Part shown: piece after piece, positions 1 to 38,499 of the stretch
Layout of the letters: every line of letters starts with the position of its first letter
Numbering within the stretch: position 1 is the stretch's first letter
Source: Planotetraspora kaengkrachanensis
GTDB lineage: Bacteria; Actinomycetota; Actinomycetes; Streptosporangiales; Streptosporangiaceae
NCBI RefSeq assembly: GCF_016862895.1
Contig: NZ_BONV01000018.1
Span: 124,001-188,000 of the forward strand
Length of the DNA: 64,000 bases
Reading direction: 5' to 3'
Notes under the pieces: generated by a model
Seen by the model: the letters and a program-made list of their open reading frames with translations, nothing else
What the model was told of the DNA's origin: nothing
Database searches by the model: none
Made by a program: the position numbers and the translations under genes

Positions 1-17
1 TCGGTCCCCTCAGCGTC

Positions 18-485
18 TCACGAGTTCGGCCGGGCGCCGGAGGCCGCCGTACCCGACAACCGCTCGGCCAGGATCCGTGCGCGGGCAAGTTGCACCTTGC
101 GCGCCTGTCCGGCGGCGAACCCGGCGAGGATCCACGGGGCCGTCAGGTCCAGCCGGTCGTGCACCCGCGTGCCCGTGCCGTCCGCCTCGAGGTCGAAGCG
201 GTAGGCCATCCGGATGCCCCCGGGGCTGCGCACCTCACCGTGGACCGACAGGCCGTCGGTGTGGAGGGTGACCCTGATGTGGTTGTCGTAGGTGATCACT
301 CCCAGGAACCGGAACCGTTCGACGTCCGTGTATCTGATGACCCCCGGTTCAGAGCGATCCACGTCGCTGACGGCGACCACGAGAGGGGACAGGCCGATGT
401 AGTTCTCGGGAGTGGTCAGGTGCTCGAACACCTTCTCCGGCGCGGCCTCCACGTGAAATTCGTGGGTCAGCACCCTGTGCGACAC
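18..485 (-). CDS. SRPBCC (START-like) family protein
   Basis: A 155-residue cytosolic protein of the SRPBCC helix-grip fold (polyketide cyclase/dehydrase and lipid-transport superfamily). It shows the usual first strand and short helices (FHVEAAPEKVFEHLTTPE, residues 9-27), alternating beta strands in the middle, and a long C-terminal helix (about 116-143) that would close over a hydrophobic ligand cavity. Members bind small hydrophobic molecules; the ligand cannot be told from sequence. The ATG start fits the family N-terminus. The gene is 73 bp downstream of the XRE regulator on the same strand and may be cotranscribed with it. The last 12 residues are low complexity. Confidence 0.85.
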   Translation of the reverse strand: MSHRVLTHEFHVEAAPEKVFEHLTTPENYIGLSPLVVAVSDVDRSEPGVIRYTDVERFRFLGVITYDNHIRVTLHTDGLSVHGEVRSPGGIRMAYRFDLEADGTGTRVHDRLDLTAPWILAGFAAGQARKVQLARARILAERLSGTAASGARPNS

Positions 486-558: not shown

Positions 559-1350
559 TCACAAAGGGGTGTCGCGCAGGAAGGCCGCCGTGTCCGGATC
601 GGCGGGGAAGAACGACTCGATCGCGAGCTCGGCGACCGTGACGTCGAGCGGGGTGCCGAACGTCGCGACGACGCTGAAGAACGACAACTCCCGGTCCCCG
701 GCCCTGACGCGCAGCGGGACGAGGATGTCGCCCGGGCCGGGAAGTTCGACCACGGGCTCGGGCTGATCGCAGGGATAGCCGAGCAACTCCGCGTACAGCT
801 CGCCCAGTTCGGGATCGGCCGTCTGGGTGATCTGCCGCCTGAGCCGTCCGAGCAGGTGCGCCCGCCATTCGCCCAGGTTGACGATGTTCGGGGCGAGCCC
901 GTCGGGATGCAGGCTCGCCCGCAGGACGTTCCCGAGCAGGTCGGGGTCGATGCCTTCGGTGAGCCGTCCGATGCCGTCGTTGGCGTCGACGAGGTTCCAG
1001 CCCCGGTCCACCACGACGGCGGGGTATGGCTCGTGCGCTGTGAGCAGTTGGCGGATCGCCGCGCAGACGGCGGCCATGTGCGGAGAGTCGAGGGGCGATT
1101 CCGTGTACACCGGTGCGTAGCCGGCGGCCAGCAACAGGTGGTTGCGCTCACGCAGGGGGAGGGACAGGTGCTCGCCGAGGTGCAGCACCATGTCGCGGCT
1201 GGGCTTGGCGCGGCCGGTCTCCAGGAAGCTGACGTGCCGGGTGGAGATCTCCGCCTGGAGTGAGAGCTCGAGCTGGCTCAGCCGCCGGTGTTCCCGCCAT
1301 TGGCGGAGGAGTTCGCCGAACGGCCGCTGGTGAAGCTGCGTCGCGGTCAC
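559..1350 (-). CDS. XRE-family regulator with MmyB-like ligand-binding domain
   Basis: A DNA-binding regulator of about 263 residues. The N-terminal helix-turn-helix (about residues 10-65, with LSQLELSLQAEIS and the recognition segment STRHVSFLETGRAKPS) is followed by an MmyB-like C-terminal domain (about 95-260, PYPAVVVDRGWNLVDAND near its start) that in relatives binds fatty-acid-like ligands. I chose the GTG at 1350 (VTATQLHQRP); an in-frame ATG at 1428 lies inside the repeat array and would add unrelated residues. The mirrored repeat array begins 71 bp upstream, so the promoter must lie in or beside it. The target is unknown. Confidence 0.85.
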   Translation of the reverse strand: MTATQLHQRPFGELLRQWREHRRLSQLELSLQAEISTRHVSFLETGRAKPSRDMVLHLGEHLSLPLRERNHLLLAAGYAPVYTESPLDSPHMAAVCAAIRQLLTAHEPYPAVVVDRGWNLVDANDGIGRLTEGIDPDLLGNVLRASLHPDGLAPNIVNLGEWRAHLLGRLRRQITQTADPELGELYAELLGYPCDQPEPVVELPGPGDILVPLRVRAGDRELSFFSVVATFGTPLDVTVAELAIESFFPADPDTAAFLRDTPL

Positions 1351-1420
1351 GCCCCAGACGCTATCCGCACTCCCGTCCCCCCATCGATTACCTCCCAGGT
1401 AACCCCAAGCAACCCCTCGC

Positions 1421-1772
1421 GTGATCATGCACAGGTTCGGGGTTGTCGCCTCTCACCTGCTCGTCCCTCCGGCGTGATCATGTAAAGACTCGGTGCTGCC
1501 GCCTTTCACCTGCAGCGATCCTCACCGTGATCATGCACACATTCGGGTCTCTGGCCTCTCACGTGCGACGACCTCGCCCGTGATCATGCATAGGGCGCAC
1601 CGTGCATGATCACGGACGAGGTTGTCGCAGGTCGTCGGCCATTCTCCAGAGCCTGTGCATGATCACGAAATGGATCGACGCAGCTCAGCCGGGCAATCGC
1701 CGAATCTCTGCATGATCACACCAAGGGGATGGGCAGGTCGGGCACCCTGCTCCCGAACTTGTGCATGATCAC
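1421..1772. repeat. Mirrored 53-bp repeat array 1 (4 forward + 4 reverse copies)
   Basis: Eight copies of GTGATCATGCAC or close variants. Forward copies start at 1421, 1474, 1527 and 1580; reverse copies (GTGCATGATCAC) start at 1602, 1655, 1708 and 1761. Spacing within each arm is exactly 53 bp. The nine bases GTGATCATG are invariant. Copies away from the centre continue into AGRYTCG, and a weaker CACCTGC-like box follows about 35 bp after each motif start. The two central copies (1580 and 1602) form an 11-bp inverted repeat around a 12-base loop. The array lies between the 3' end of the ABC permease (stop at 1796) and the start of the XRE gene, both on the minus strand. No tRNA, transposase or CRISPR feature explains it. 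Confidence 0.95.
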
Positions 1773-1795
1773 GCCGGGCGCAAGGGGGGGGGGGC

Positions 1796-2560
1796 TCATT
1801 GCCAGCGGAACGTACGGGTGGCAGCGATTACCGCGACCACGGCCCATCCGGCCATCACGGCCAGGTGCAGGGCCGACGGCGTGTGCCCGCCCAGCGTGCC
1901 GACGAGTCCCTGACCGAACGCGCCTGTCGGCGTGAAGTCGCTCACCCGCCGCAGCGCCTCGGGCATGAGGTCCCGCGGCAGCCACATGCCGGCGAAGAAC
2001 AACAACGGGAAGAGCGTGCCCGCGCCCACCCCCTGAACGATGCGCGAATTCGGCGCGACCGCCGCGAGGAACAGGCCGAGGGCGAACATGGCCACGGCGC
2101 CGAGCACCACGACCACAGTGAAGCCGAGCAGTGCCCGCGGGAACGGCATGTCCAGGACGAGGTGGCCCGACACCAGCGTCAGAGTCGTCGCGACGACCGC
2201 CACCACGGCGTTGATCGCAAGCTGTACGGCGAGCAGGACGACGGGCTGCACAGGGGTGGTGGACATGCGCCGCAACACGCCGCGCTCACGGTAGACGACG
2301 AGGGCGGTGGGGAGCGTGCTGAGCGCGAGCGTCGCCACCGACAGCAGGACCATCATCCCGGGGAGTTGCGCGTCGACCGGCCGGAGGCCCCCCAGTTCGG
2401 GGCTGGCGTCGCGGAAGCCTGGGATCGCGCTGCCCAGGATCAGCAGGAGCGCGGCGGGAAGACCGATCGCGAAGAACACCGCGAGAGGTTCGCGGAGGAA
2501 CAGGCGGCTCTCGACGGCGGCCAGGCGGCCGAGTCCGGGGGTGCGGATGATCGCGGTCAT
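1796..2560 (-). CDS. ABC exporter permease (ABC-2 type)
   Basis: A 254-residue integral membrane protein of the ABC-2 permease family with about six hydrophobic segments: one near residues 23-45 (FAIGLPAALLLILGSA), two or three centred on 70-130, and later segments to the C-terminus. It contains the family-typical YRERGVLRRMSTTP cytoplasmic loop. It should form a dimer with the ATPase encoded 11 bp upstream to export a drug, lipid or peptide. The ATG at 2560 is preceded by AGGAG. An 11-G homopolymer (1784-1794) and the mirrored repeat array follow its stop. The divergent two-component system suggests regulated export or stress response; the substrate is unknown. Confidence 0.9.
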   Translation of the reverse strand: MTAIIRTPGLGRLAAVESRLFLREPLAVFFAIGLPAALLLILGSAIPGFRDASPELGGLRPVDAQLPGMMVLLSVATLALSTLPTALVVYRERGVLRRMSTTPVQPVVLLAVQLAINAVVAVVATTLTLVSGHLVLDMPFPRALLGFTVVVVLGAVAMFALGLFLAAVAPNSRIVQGVGAGTLFPLLFFAGMWLPRDLMPEALRRVSDFTPTGAFGQGLVGTLGGHTPSALHLAVMAGWAVVAVIAATRTFRWQ

Positions 2561-34940: not shown

Positions 34941-37278
<2,338 letters not shown>

Positions 37279-37282
<4 letters not shown>

Positions 37283-37697
37283 TCATGCACAGATTCGCGT
37301 GCGGGGGGTGTGACCAGCTCACCCCTCGCGCGTGATCATGCACAGGCTCGGCGATGGGGTGGTTGACCAGCCCAACGTAACGCGTGATCATGCACAGGCT
37401 CGCGAATCTATGGGCTGACCTGGTTAAACATCATTCGTGATCATGCACGCCTTCGCGGAAGCCGTCTTGGGCCAGGGCCTATTCGGTGTGTGATCATGCA
37501 TCGCGGCCCGTGCCGCTCGTGCGAGGCCTGATCGTGAGTAGTCGGATCCCCGGCGCAAGGCCGACATGGAGTCGCCGAAGTGCATGATCACAACAGGCAT
37601 TCACCCAGCTCGCCGAGGCATGCCGAGAACGTGTGCATGATCACGGACGGCATCGTGCCTGGTCAATCCAGCGATTCGCGAACCCGTGCATGATCAC
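37279..37697. repeat. Mirrored 53-bp repeat array 2 (5 forward + 3 reverse copies)
   Basis: Forward copies of GTGATCATGCAC start at 37279, 37332, 37384, 37437 and 37490 (spacing 53, 52, 53, 53); reverse copies start at 37580, 37633 and 37686 (53, 53). Outer copies continue into the same AGRYTCG or similar box as array 1. The central gap of 78 bp holds a degenerate GCCTGATCGTGAG. The array begins in the asd stop codon and ends 28 bp before the stop of the convergent M15-like gene. No coding function is evident. Confidence 0.95.
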
Positions 37698-37725: not shown

Positions 37726-38499
37726 TTAGCGGAAGAGGATGTCCCAGTGGGTGGGTTCGTCGGCGTAGACGTCGAGGTCGGGGGGGAGCCCCGGCATCGG
37801 GGGCGGGCGGTAGAGATCGGCTCCGTCGCCTCTGACCTTCCAGAACCGGTACGTCCTGGTGATGAAGGAATCGACACACGCGTTGTGCGCGATGTCGACC
37901 TTGAAGCCTTTCCTGTGGCTGAAGCGGCCTCCCGCGTGGCCCTTCTCCGTCCCTCCGGTGACGATGATCGGGCATCCGCTCACGCGTTTCAGGTCGATCG
38001 CCTGCATGAGCGTGCCGTACCTGATGTCTTCCAGCGATGTGCAGGTGCGCCGATCGGCGTTCACGCAGTGCCCGCTCGACTTCCAGCGGAGCCCGGCGGA
38101 CAGGAGGTCGTGCATGGCCTGGTCCTGGTCCATCCGTACGGCCGTGGCCGTGGCATCCCACGTGCGGATCGTCGCGGTGAAGGTGCCCACCAGGGACCTG
38201 CGCGGCGGGTCGGCCCCGAGAGGCAAAGACGGAGGCTGCGGCGCCTCGCCCGGCACCTCGCCCGGCACCTCGCCCGGCACCTCGCCCGGCACCTCGCCCG
38301 GCACCGAAAGCTGCGCCTCGGCCAGAGCCTCGGCCGGCGCCTCGAGTTGTGCCTCGGCCGGCGCCGCAACGAGGAGGGCGGGATCGGGCGGCGGAGTGCC
38401 CGCGAAGCTCGGCTGCGCGACCAGGAGCAGGGTGGCCAGGAGTAGTGCGAGGACGCAAGAAGCGCCCGCCAGGACCGACCATGACGGATGTATGCCCAT
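37726..38499 (-). CDS. Secreted M15-like peptidase-related protein with VPGE repeats
   Basis: A 257-residue exported protein. After a signal sequence (about 1-33, ending PSFAG) comes a low-complexity region with five GEVP units (about 68-86) encoded by a 12-bp tandem repeat. The C-terminal domain (about 105-257) has SHRKGFKVDIAHN and a final THWDILF. These resemble the HxxGxAxD and WHxD/H zinc motifs of M15 D,D-peptidases and phage endolysins, so it may cut peptidoglycan; this is by-eye inference. It is convergent with asd. Confidence 0.75.
   Translation of the reverse strand: MGIHPSWSVLAGASCVLALLLATLLLVAQPSFAGTPPPDPALLVAAPAEAQLEAPAEALAEAQLSVPGEVPGEVPGEVPGEVPGEAPQPPSLPLGADPPRRSLVGTFTATIRTWDATATAVRMDQDQAMHDLLSAGLRWKSSGHCVNADRRTCTSLEDIRYGTLMQAIDLKRVSGCPIIVTGGTEKGHAGGRFSHRKGFKVDIAHNACVDSFITRTYRFWKVRGDGADLYRPPPMPGLPPDLDVYADEPTHWDILFR

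Follow-up and report, generated by a model that had tools for sequence, protein, structure and literature searches.

Arrays of a conserved core at 53-bp pitch, often mirrored and mostly behind genes, in Planotetraspora: a probable protein-DNA site

We showed that the genome of Planotetraspora kaengkrachanensis holds, mostly just behind genes, arrays in which a short core is repeated at a usual pitch of exactly 53 bp, often as two arms that face each other. Two arrays lie in the window, the stretch of 64,000 nucleotides of contig NZ_BONV01000018.1 that was analysed. The arrays are quite probably a protein-DNA site under selection; that the site works as a protein-bound, two-sided transcription barrier is our preferred but tentative reading, possible rather than probable.

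Methods

Gene calls were made throughout with our own codon-usage script. An arm was defined as at least two cores lying 51-55 bp apart, and isolated cores were thereby excluded. P. kaengkrachanensis (G000) and G001 (blastn identity 91.06%) were compared at 17 arm pairs from 12 loci, matched by hand at corresponding places, and the unit offset was picked by linker identity. Other genomes are denoted by G numbers, and array loci or sequence stretches by L numbers.

Results

The features of both arrays are listed in Table 1. In array 1 the 9-mer GTGATCATG matches exactly at the four plus-strand positions given there and on the minus strand at 1605, 1658, 1711 and 1764, with all steps 53 bp in both arms, which confirms the eight copies, mirrored four and four, of an earlier note made from the letters of the window. 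The reverse positions of that note (1602, 1655, 1708 and 1761) hold as starts of a 12-mer on the plus strand, not as matches of the 9-mer. Similarly, a motif common to all eight copies exists, and it is the 9-mer; the 12-mer GTGATCATGCAC of the note's title is exact in five of the eight, its ends deviating at 1474, 1580 and 1708. The innermost copies were correctly described as an 11-bp inverted repeat with a 12-base loop, and the inner stem extends to 27 pairs if G-T pairs and one mismatch are tolerated, the second longest among 36 dyads. Folded as DNA, array 1 reached -116.9 kcal/mol versus -66.6 kcal/mol for shuffles. One-mismatch matches in the window numbered 48 (shuffle mean 9.76), a count attained by none of 100 shuffles. 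The regulator on the left, its start taken from codon-usage gene calling, has its 5' end towards the array, and the permease on the right has its 3' end towards it at a distance of 24 bp.

Table 1. Coordinates of the two arrays and their neighbours in the window.
Feature	Position	Strand	Basis
Left neighbour of array 1: helix-turn-helix regulator with MmyB-like ligand domain	559..1350	-	Pfam PF17765, PF13560
C-rich tract preceding first core of left arm, array 1	1401..1420	+	sequence; typical of arms generally
Left arm of array 1: cores at 1421, 1474, 1527, 1580; three 53-nt units	1421..1591	+	
Centre of array 1: 11-bp inverted repeat of inner cores, 12-base loop, 34 bp in total	1580..1613	.	
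Right arm of array 1: 12-mers at 1602, 1655, 1708, 1761; three 53-nt units	1602..1772	-	
Mirror C-rich tract of right arm, array 1 (G-rich on + strand)	1773..1794	-	sequence
Right neighbour of array 1: ABC-2 type permease	1796..2560	-	gene calling and Pfam
Aspartate-semialdehyde-dehydrogenase-like gene (asd), ending inside array 2	36212..37282	+	Pfam PF02774, PF01118
Left arm of array 2: five cores, steps 53, 52, 53, 53	37279..37498	+	
Right arm of array 2: three cores, steps 53 bp	37583..37697	-	
Convergent gene across array 2 from asd	37726..38304	-	gene calling; without Pfam family

Array 2 (37279-37697), missed by the earlier note, has five forward and three reverse cores with one step of 52, and its first core includes the stop codon TGA (37280-37282) of asd. 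The asd protein is 96% identical to its counterpart in Planotetraspora silvatica, where the same gap also carries an array. The gap behind asd holds an array in G000, P. silvatica, G004 and Sphaerimonospora, and none in G062, G186 and G215; that of G062 resembles the gap of Planotetraspora sp. A-T 1434 over the stretch compared, which makes G062 probably that strain despite a different genus number. Several named genera show, by eye, an ordinary hairpin instead. In the asd gap of G002 (L208, core at 2568) one full core and a truncated one remain; by eye, the break falls within TGATCA, the palindromic part of the cores, which would fit recombination between a forward and a reverse core.

Generally, an arm consists of a C-rich tract followed by two to six cores GTGATCATGCA, usually exactly 53 bp apart, with linkers between them; 190 of 202 Planotetraspora units are 53 nt long. 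The C fraction before arms is 0.50-0.54 versus 0.38 in the control, and the tract is independent of an adjoining gene end (C 0.54 versus 0.50). The spacers differ, as had been noted, and they also carry conserved marks that had been overlooked: counted from the core GTGATCATGCA (65 first and 125 later units), TTCG at +15..18, YGACCTGC at +32..39, and A and C at +44 and +45. Since this second layer of conservation sits in them, the spacers are not free sequence. The last core of an arm is bare, TTCG and GACCTGC being seen only ahead of another core. All 30 instances of adjoining arms within 600 bp are oriented inward. With a gap of less than 1800 bp as the criterion, G000, G001, G003 and G062 together gave 33 arm pairs, and 30 arms were left without a partner.

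The centre is 34 or 35 bp wide in 12 of the 19 own-genome centres found with 22-52 bp allowed, while 10 of 19 dyads in G186 have a 6-base gap, i.e. a width of 24 bp. The exact 24-bp palindrome GTGATCATGCAATTGCATGATCAC is present, among the places listed, in G000, G001, G120 and G186. In G062, 16 of the 33 listed centres are 51-52 bp wide, and a loop related to GTGTCCGCCCGNCGGGCGCACCCTCGT is, by eye, common to most; it is either a second conserved part or a trace of copying. The pitch is about five helical turns, as fits the earlier proposal of binding on one face of the DNA; conservation inside the unit nevertheless has no 10.6-bp period (harmonic share 0.022, attained by 0.587 of permutations). 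CRISPR repeats are about 20-50 bp long with unrelated spacers. A CRISPR array, already doubted in the note, was rejected on anatomy: the invariant part is 9-11 bp, the linkers have conserved marks and the arms are mirrored.

Over 43 matched units of G000 and G001 the nine core positions differ by 0.8%, positions +15..18 by 5.8%, +33..38 by 16.7% and the free linker by 44%, the linker divergence being understated because the unit offset was picked by linker identity. In the 17 most secure unit pairs, differences fall on 1 of 153 core positions and 100 of 357 free positions. Together with the constancy of unit length, these values agree with the earlier note that motif and spacing look selected. 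All twelve compared loci lie at the same place in both genomes. Between loci of the own genome the linkers have diverged to background, and units show no excess likeness (6 pairs at a similarity of at least 0.70 versus 2.9 expected), so these arrays evolved for the most part in place. Within loci, 8 of 214 unit pairs reach 0.70 or more, some adjacent units are near-identical, and in paired arms the outermost units resemble their partners (0.478 versus 0.336). From these likenesses, and from the common loop of the G062 centres, local duplication and conversion between arms occur, and in G062 apparently also some copying. The statement that the array is not a simple tandem duplication is thus right as a rule, with the near-identical neighbours as exceptions.

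Covariation was computed on distinct 53-nt units only (189). No base-pair covariation was found inside the unit, where CAGRT and ACCTG form an inverted motif; the strongest dependencies were those of adjacent bases, and duplex DNA is therefore probably what gets read. In Planotetraspora, linkers that flank the centre resemble their partners no more than shuffled linkers do (P 0.28, 20 dyads). In Microbispora about 8 nt on each side of the centre match between arms (P 0.001, 12 dyads; P 0.0003, 19 dyads). In G398 the dialect bases do not match between arms (P 0.75 to 0.89, 19 dyads), and 10 bases outside the dyad match weakly (P 0.0045). We concluded that what is generally conserved is the motif in duplex DNA, a symmetric extension being possible at some centres. 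A selected long hairpin is unsupported in the window's genus by the covariation, partner-linker and dyad tests. An intrinsic terminator would be a compact GC-rich hairpin with a T run behind it; scoring of hairpins alone detected no array-specific compact hairpin in general, and some centres fold well. As in a protein operator array, motif and pitch are conserved beyond the neighbouring sequence.

The pattern GTGATCATG-N40..50-GTGATCATG occurs 589 times in the 8.77-Mb own genome and not once when read backwards, and it was present in 5 of 5 Planotetraspora genomes examined; array loci in the own genome number roughly 159 by extrapolation. Arm density is uneven, with 24 arms in 600 kb of contig C1 and 0 in 120 kb of contig C2 (100001-220000), in own-genome blocks (1.264 Mb) that were chosen after the hit lists were known, those of C2 for having few hits. 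The same 1.264 Mb contain 24 isolated cores, 14 of them within genes. In a family sample of 297 genomes, GTGATCNNG-N42..45-GTGATCNNG was counted 180-767 times in five Planotetraspora genomes, 605 times in G062, 59 and 249 times in two genomes of genus g34, and 24-225 times in five genomes (G120, G186, G193, G199, G215) of genus g65, which is probably Microbispora and is so called here. At least one match was found in 283 of the 297 genomes; outside the 13 array-bearing ones the counts were 0-16, which we take as chance. An order sample of 297 genomes, nearly all of the same family, added no further carriers. In a class sample of 373 genomes the 11-mer was counted 786 times in G000; the highest counts outside the family were 413 (G348), 328 (G398), 106 (G535), 90 (G451) and 45 (G346). 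Lower still were G120 (28), G621 (19) and the remainder (14 or fewer). Two species of one genus, G398 and G361, had 328 copies versus 1 of GTGATCWTGCA.

In the five genomes outside the family, a C-rich stretch precedes the core and other dialects follow it. The cores there mostly form inward-facing pairs or stacks at a looser spacing of about 32-64 bp, in some cases more; departures from this orientation are seen at L254, and simple inverted core pairs exist in G398. In related genera the anatomy is unchanged and the dialects have changed. The first core is GTGATCATGCACAGgTTCG in Planotetraspora and, as a consensus, GTGATCATGCAGAAgTTCGG in G004 and GTGATCTTGTAGTTTGTCGCA in Microbispora, and in g34 it reads, by eye, about GTGATCTTGCRnnnnCTCGCA, a dialect shared by Sphaerimonospora mesophila (L160), itself with an array in the asd gap. 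Such genus-wide dialects suggest a co-evolving trans factor. Only 3 of 20 Microbispora loci had both flanks comparable in other genera, and one was array-bearing on both sides (L230, L234); at L213 and L216 the array of Microbispora has no counterpart at the orthologous gap of the other genus. A tandem repeat of period 53 in Nonomuraea deserti (L182:6891-7150; 4.8 copies, 92% match) is of unrelated sequence, and the common period is probably coincidence.

Among 95 arms of G000, G001, G003 and G062, the gene end closest to the outer edge is a 3' end in 66, of which 52 lie within -3 to 50 bp and 10 have the stop codon inside the first core; the remaining 29 lie nearest to a gene start, 6 within 50 bp. 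Only 3 of the 65 array gaps in these genomes are divergent, and single arms between co-directional genes show no preferred orientation (13 with the genes, 10 against). When 10 gaps with a core but no arm and gaps <40 or >1000 bp were excluded, convergent gaps in Planotetraspora made up 19 of 44 with arrays versus 147 of 891 without (P 5e-5), and divergent gaps 3 of 44 versus 243 of 891 (P 0.0014). Stretches of the following genomes were taken around listed hits, so that their context counts are not random samples: outer 3' ends were found for 25 of 32 arms in G186 and G215, 6 of 10 in G004 and G002, and 30 of 42 outer cores in G348, G398, G451 and G535, and arrays stood in divergent gaps in 2 of 12 cases in G348, 1 of 9 in G398 and some in G002 and G004. 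Genes contained 14 of 193 cores in the analysed stretches of the own genome, each of the 14 being isolated, and 0 of 41 in G348, 0 of 44 in G398 and 2 of 15 in G451 and G535 together. With 589 phased pairs and this bias to gene ends, the genome-wide search did not give the random spacing or position that the earlier note had held against its own reading; nor did any named element match in the searches made.

Rfam 15 gave four matches with E up to 1 for positions 1000-2200 of the window, all far below the gathering threshold (best mir-431, E 0.0066), and only glycine riboswitches, away from the array, for 11 further array loci. Two adjacent glycine riboswitch aptamers at L223:801-994, about 3 kb from a Microbispora array, are ordinary. 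No carrier was matched in viral_contigs (one pattern) or in phages and plasmids (array 1). No common cognate gene was found beside the places of the palindrome GTGATCATGCAATTGCATGATCAC or beside seven arrays, mostly in divergent gaps. RAYT (Y1 transposase, PF01797) had no match in G000, G001, G002, G003, G062, G186 and G215; 6 of the 13 array-bearing genomes have it, as do 6 of the 9 Microbispora whose pattern counts are at background, and it is thus uncorrelated with arrays.

Discussion

We infer from these results that the array would be a cis-acting site in duplex DNA, recognised through the core GTGATCATGCA and the dialect bases next to it by a putative sequence-specific protein, whose copies would bind in a row at the 53-bp pitch. 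Where both arms exist, the two inward-facing stacks would join at the centre into a rod lying on the gap after the gene. A polymerase leaving the gene would first transcribe the C-rich tract, where Rho may load, and would then run into the bound array, the rod acting as a two-sided barrier. This barrier is suggested because the arrays lie mostly after stop codons, are enriched between convergent genes and avoid divergent promoters, and we prefer it because it joins location, symmetry and C tract. It is also consistent with the two loci (asd, L213) where the array stands in the place of what is, by eye, an ordinary hairpin in relatives. Against it are the L216 array of Microbispora, placed oddly for a barrier between two co-directional genes whose spacing in G062 is 15 bp, the arrays in some divergent gaps, the single arms without preferred orientation, and the independence of the C tract from gene ends. 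Strong hairpins were found in 5 of 19 convergent gaps with arrays versus 48 of 147 without, and in 1 of 22 versus 78 of 501 co-directional gaps, neither difference being significant. Since ordinary strong hairpins are about equally frequent in array gaps, arrays do not measurably replace terminators; asd and L213 look like single examples of replacement, and these many-gap comparisons were negative for it. It is rather doubtful that the whole is a new genome-wide class of horizontally scattered two-part element, whose putative DNA-binding protein would assemble on the GTGATCATGCA arrays behind genes into phased and often mirrored rods, thereby insulating neighbouring transcription units, with protein specificity and site dialect changing together by lineage.

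A REP/BIME-like intergenic repeat, spread by an enzyme other than RAYT to gene 3' ends that merely tolerate insertion, with a secondary role for the host, is somewhat unlikely, and is given that much weight because the scattered occurrence across families speaks for a mobile system. The 328 copies in G398 versus 1 in its congener, the hyper-abundance in five genomes far from the window's family, the presence and absence at orthologous gaps and the alike G062 centres all speak for it, as do many intergenic copies at gene ends. Units of different loci in the own genome are nevertheless not unusually alike while their cores are intact, the twelve compared loci hold their position in G000 and G001, and G000 lacks RAYT, which elsewhere does not follow the arrays; nor is the unit a short palindromic hairpin, there being no covarying stem and 30 arms without partner. 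An actinobacterial DNA uptake sequence would share several traits with the arrays: a short motif that is invariant and hyper-abundant, dialects that follow lineage, and inverted pairs where genes end. It should be dispersed through genes and gaps, though, and the cores are nearly absent from genes; the 53-bp pitch, moreover, has no counterpart in the Neisseria and Pasteurellaceae systems as far as the accounts cited below describe them, and we regard this identity as very improbable.

Sites that organise the chromosome, where a nucleoid protein would bridge DNA or anchor it, with gene ends preferred as the positions least disruptive to genes, would explain the many loci per genome, the inward-facing rods, the diverse neighbours and the occurrence of single and double arms alike; with the very uneven density between contigs C1 and C2 we consider them unlikely. 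An RNA element, the mirrored arms giving a long transcript hairpin that terminates or protects mRNA, draws on the folding of array 1 far beyond its shuffles, on the matching bases that flank the Microbispora centres and, weakly, lie outside the G398 dyads, and on the likeness of outermost partner units. The unpaired arms, the lack of covariation inside units and the lack of inner matches in Planotetraspora linkers and in the G398 dialect bases make it improbable.

The arrays are an apparently undescribed cis-element, no description of such an element having been found in the open-licence literature, with well over 100 places per genome (extrapolated) in actinomycetes and a recurrence in unrelated actinobacterial families. 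Should the barrier model hold, they would show that bacteria, too, can insulate adjacent and often convergent genes by means of a bound protein. Since dialects differ between close relatives, the joint change of a DNA-binding protein and hundreds of sites could be tracked.

Among known systems, the REP/BIME/REPIN elements of proteobacteria (PMC2817692) are hyper-abundant short intergenic repeats with set orientations, frequent at gene ends. The arrays are likewise hyper-abundant, intergenic, short, oriented and at gene ends, but have a fixed 53-bp pitch, a unit that is itself non-palindromic and linkers diverged between loci, in an own genome without RAYT. The uptake sequences of Neisseria and Pasteurellaceae are abundant motifs with dialects and inverted pairs at gene ends (PMC1852404, PMC3630211), and in N. 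meningitidis 635 of 1,874 lie in genes, as summed from Table 4 of PMC1852404. The cores resemble them as an invariant hyper-abundant 9-11-mer with dialects and inverted pairs between convergent genes, and differ in being almost absent from genes and clustered in phased arrays. The TAACTGA direct repeats of Beggiatoaceae, Cyanobacteria and Bacteroidetes are intergenic and patchy, suggesting horizontal spread (PMC4679880). Both are short intergenic direct repeats of patchy distribution, but those are heptamers mostly just upstream of start codons, whereas the arrays are built of 11-mers behind genes and are mirrored. In TTF-I with its Sal-box repeats and in Tus-Ter, a polymerase or a fork is halted at repeated, oriented protein sites. 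By analogy the arrays may work as such roadblocks, unlike them in that orientation seems irrelevant for single arms.
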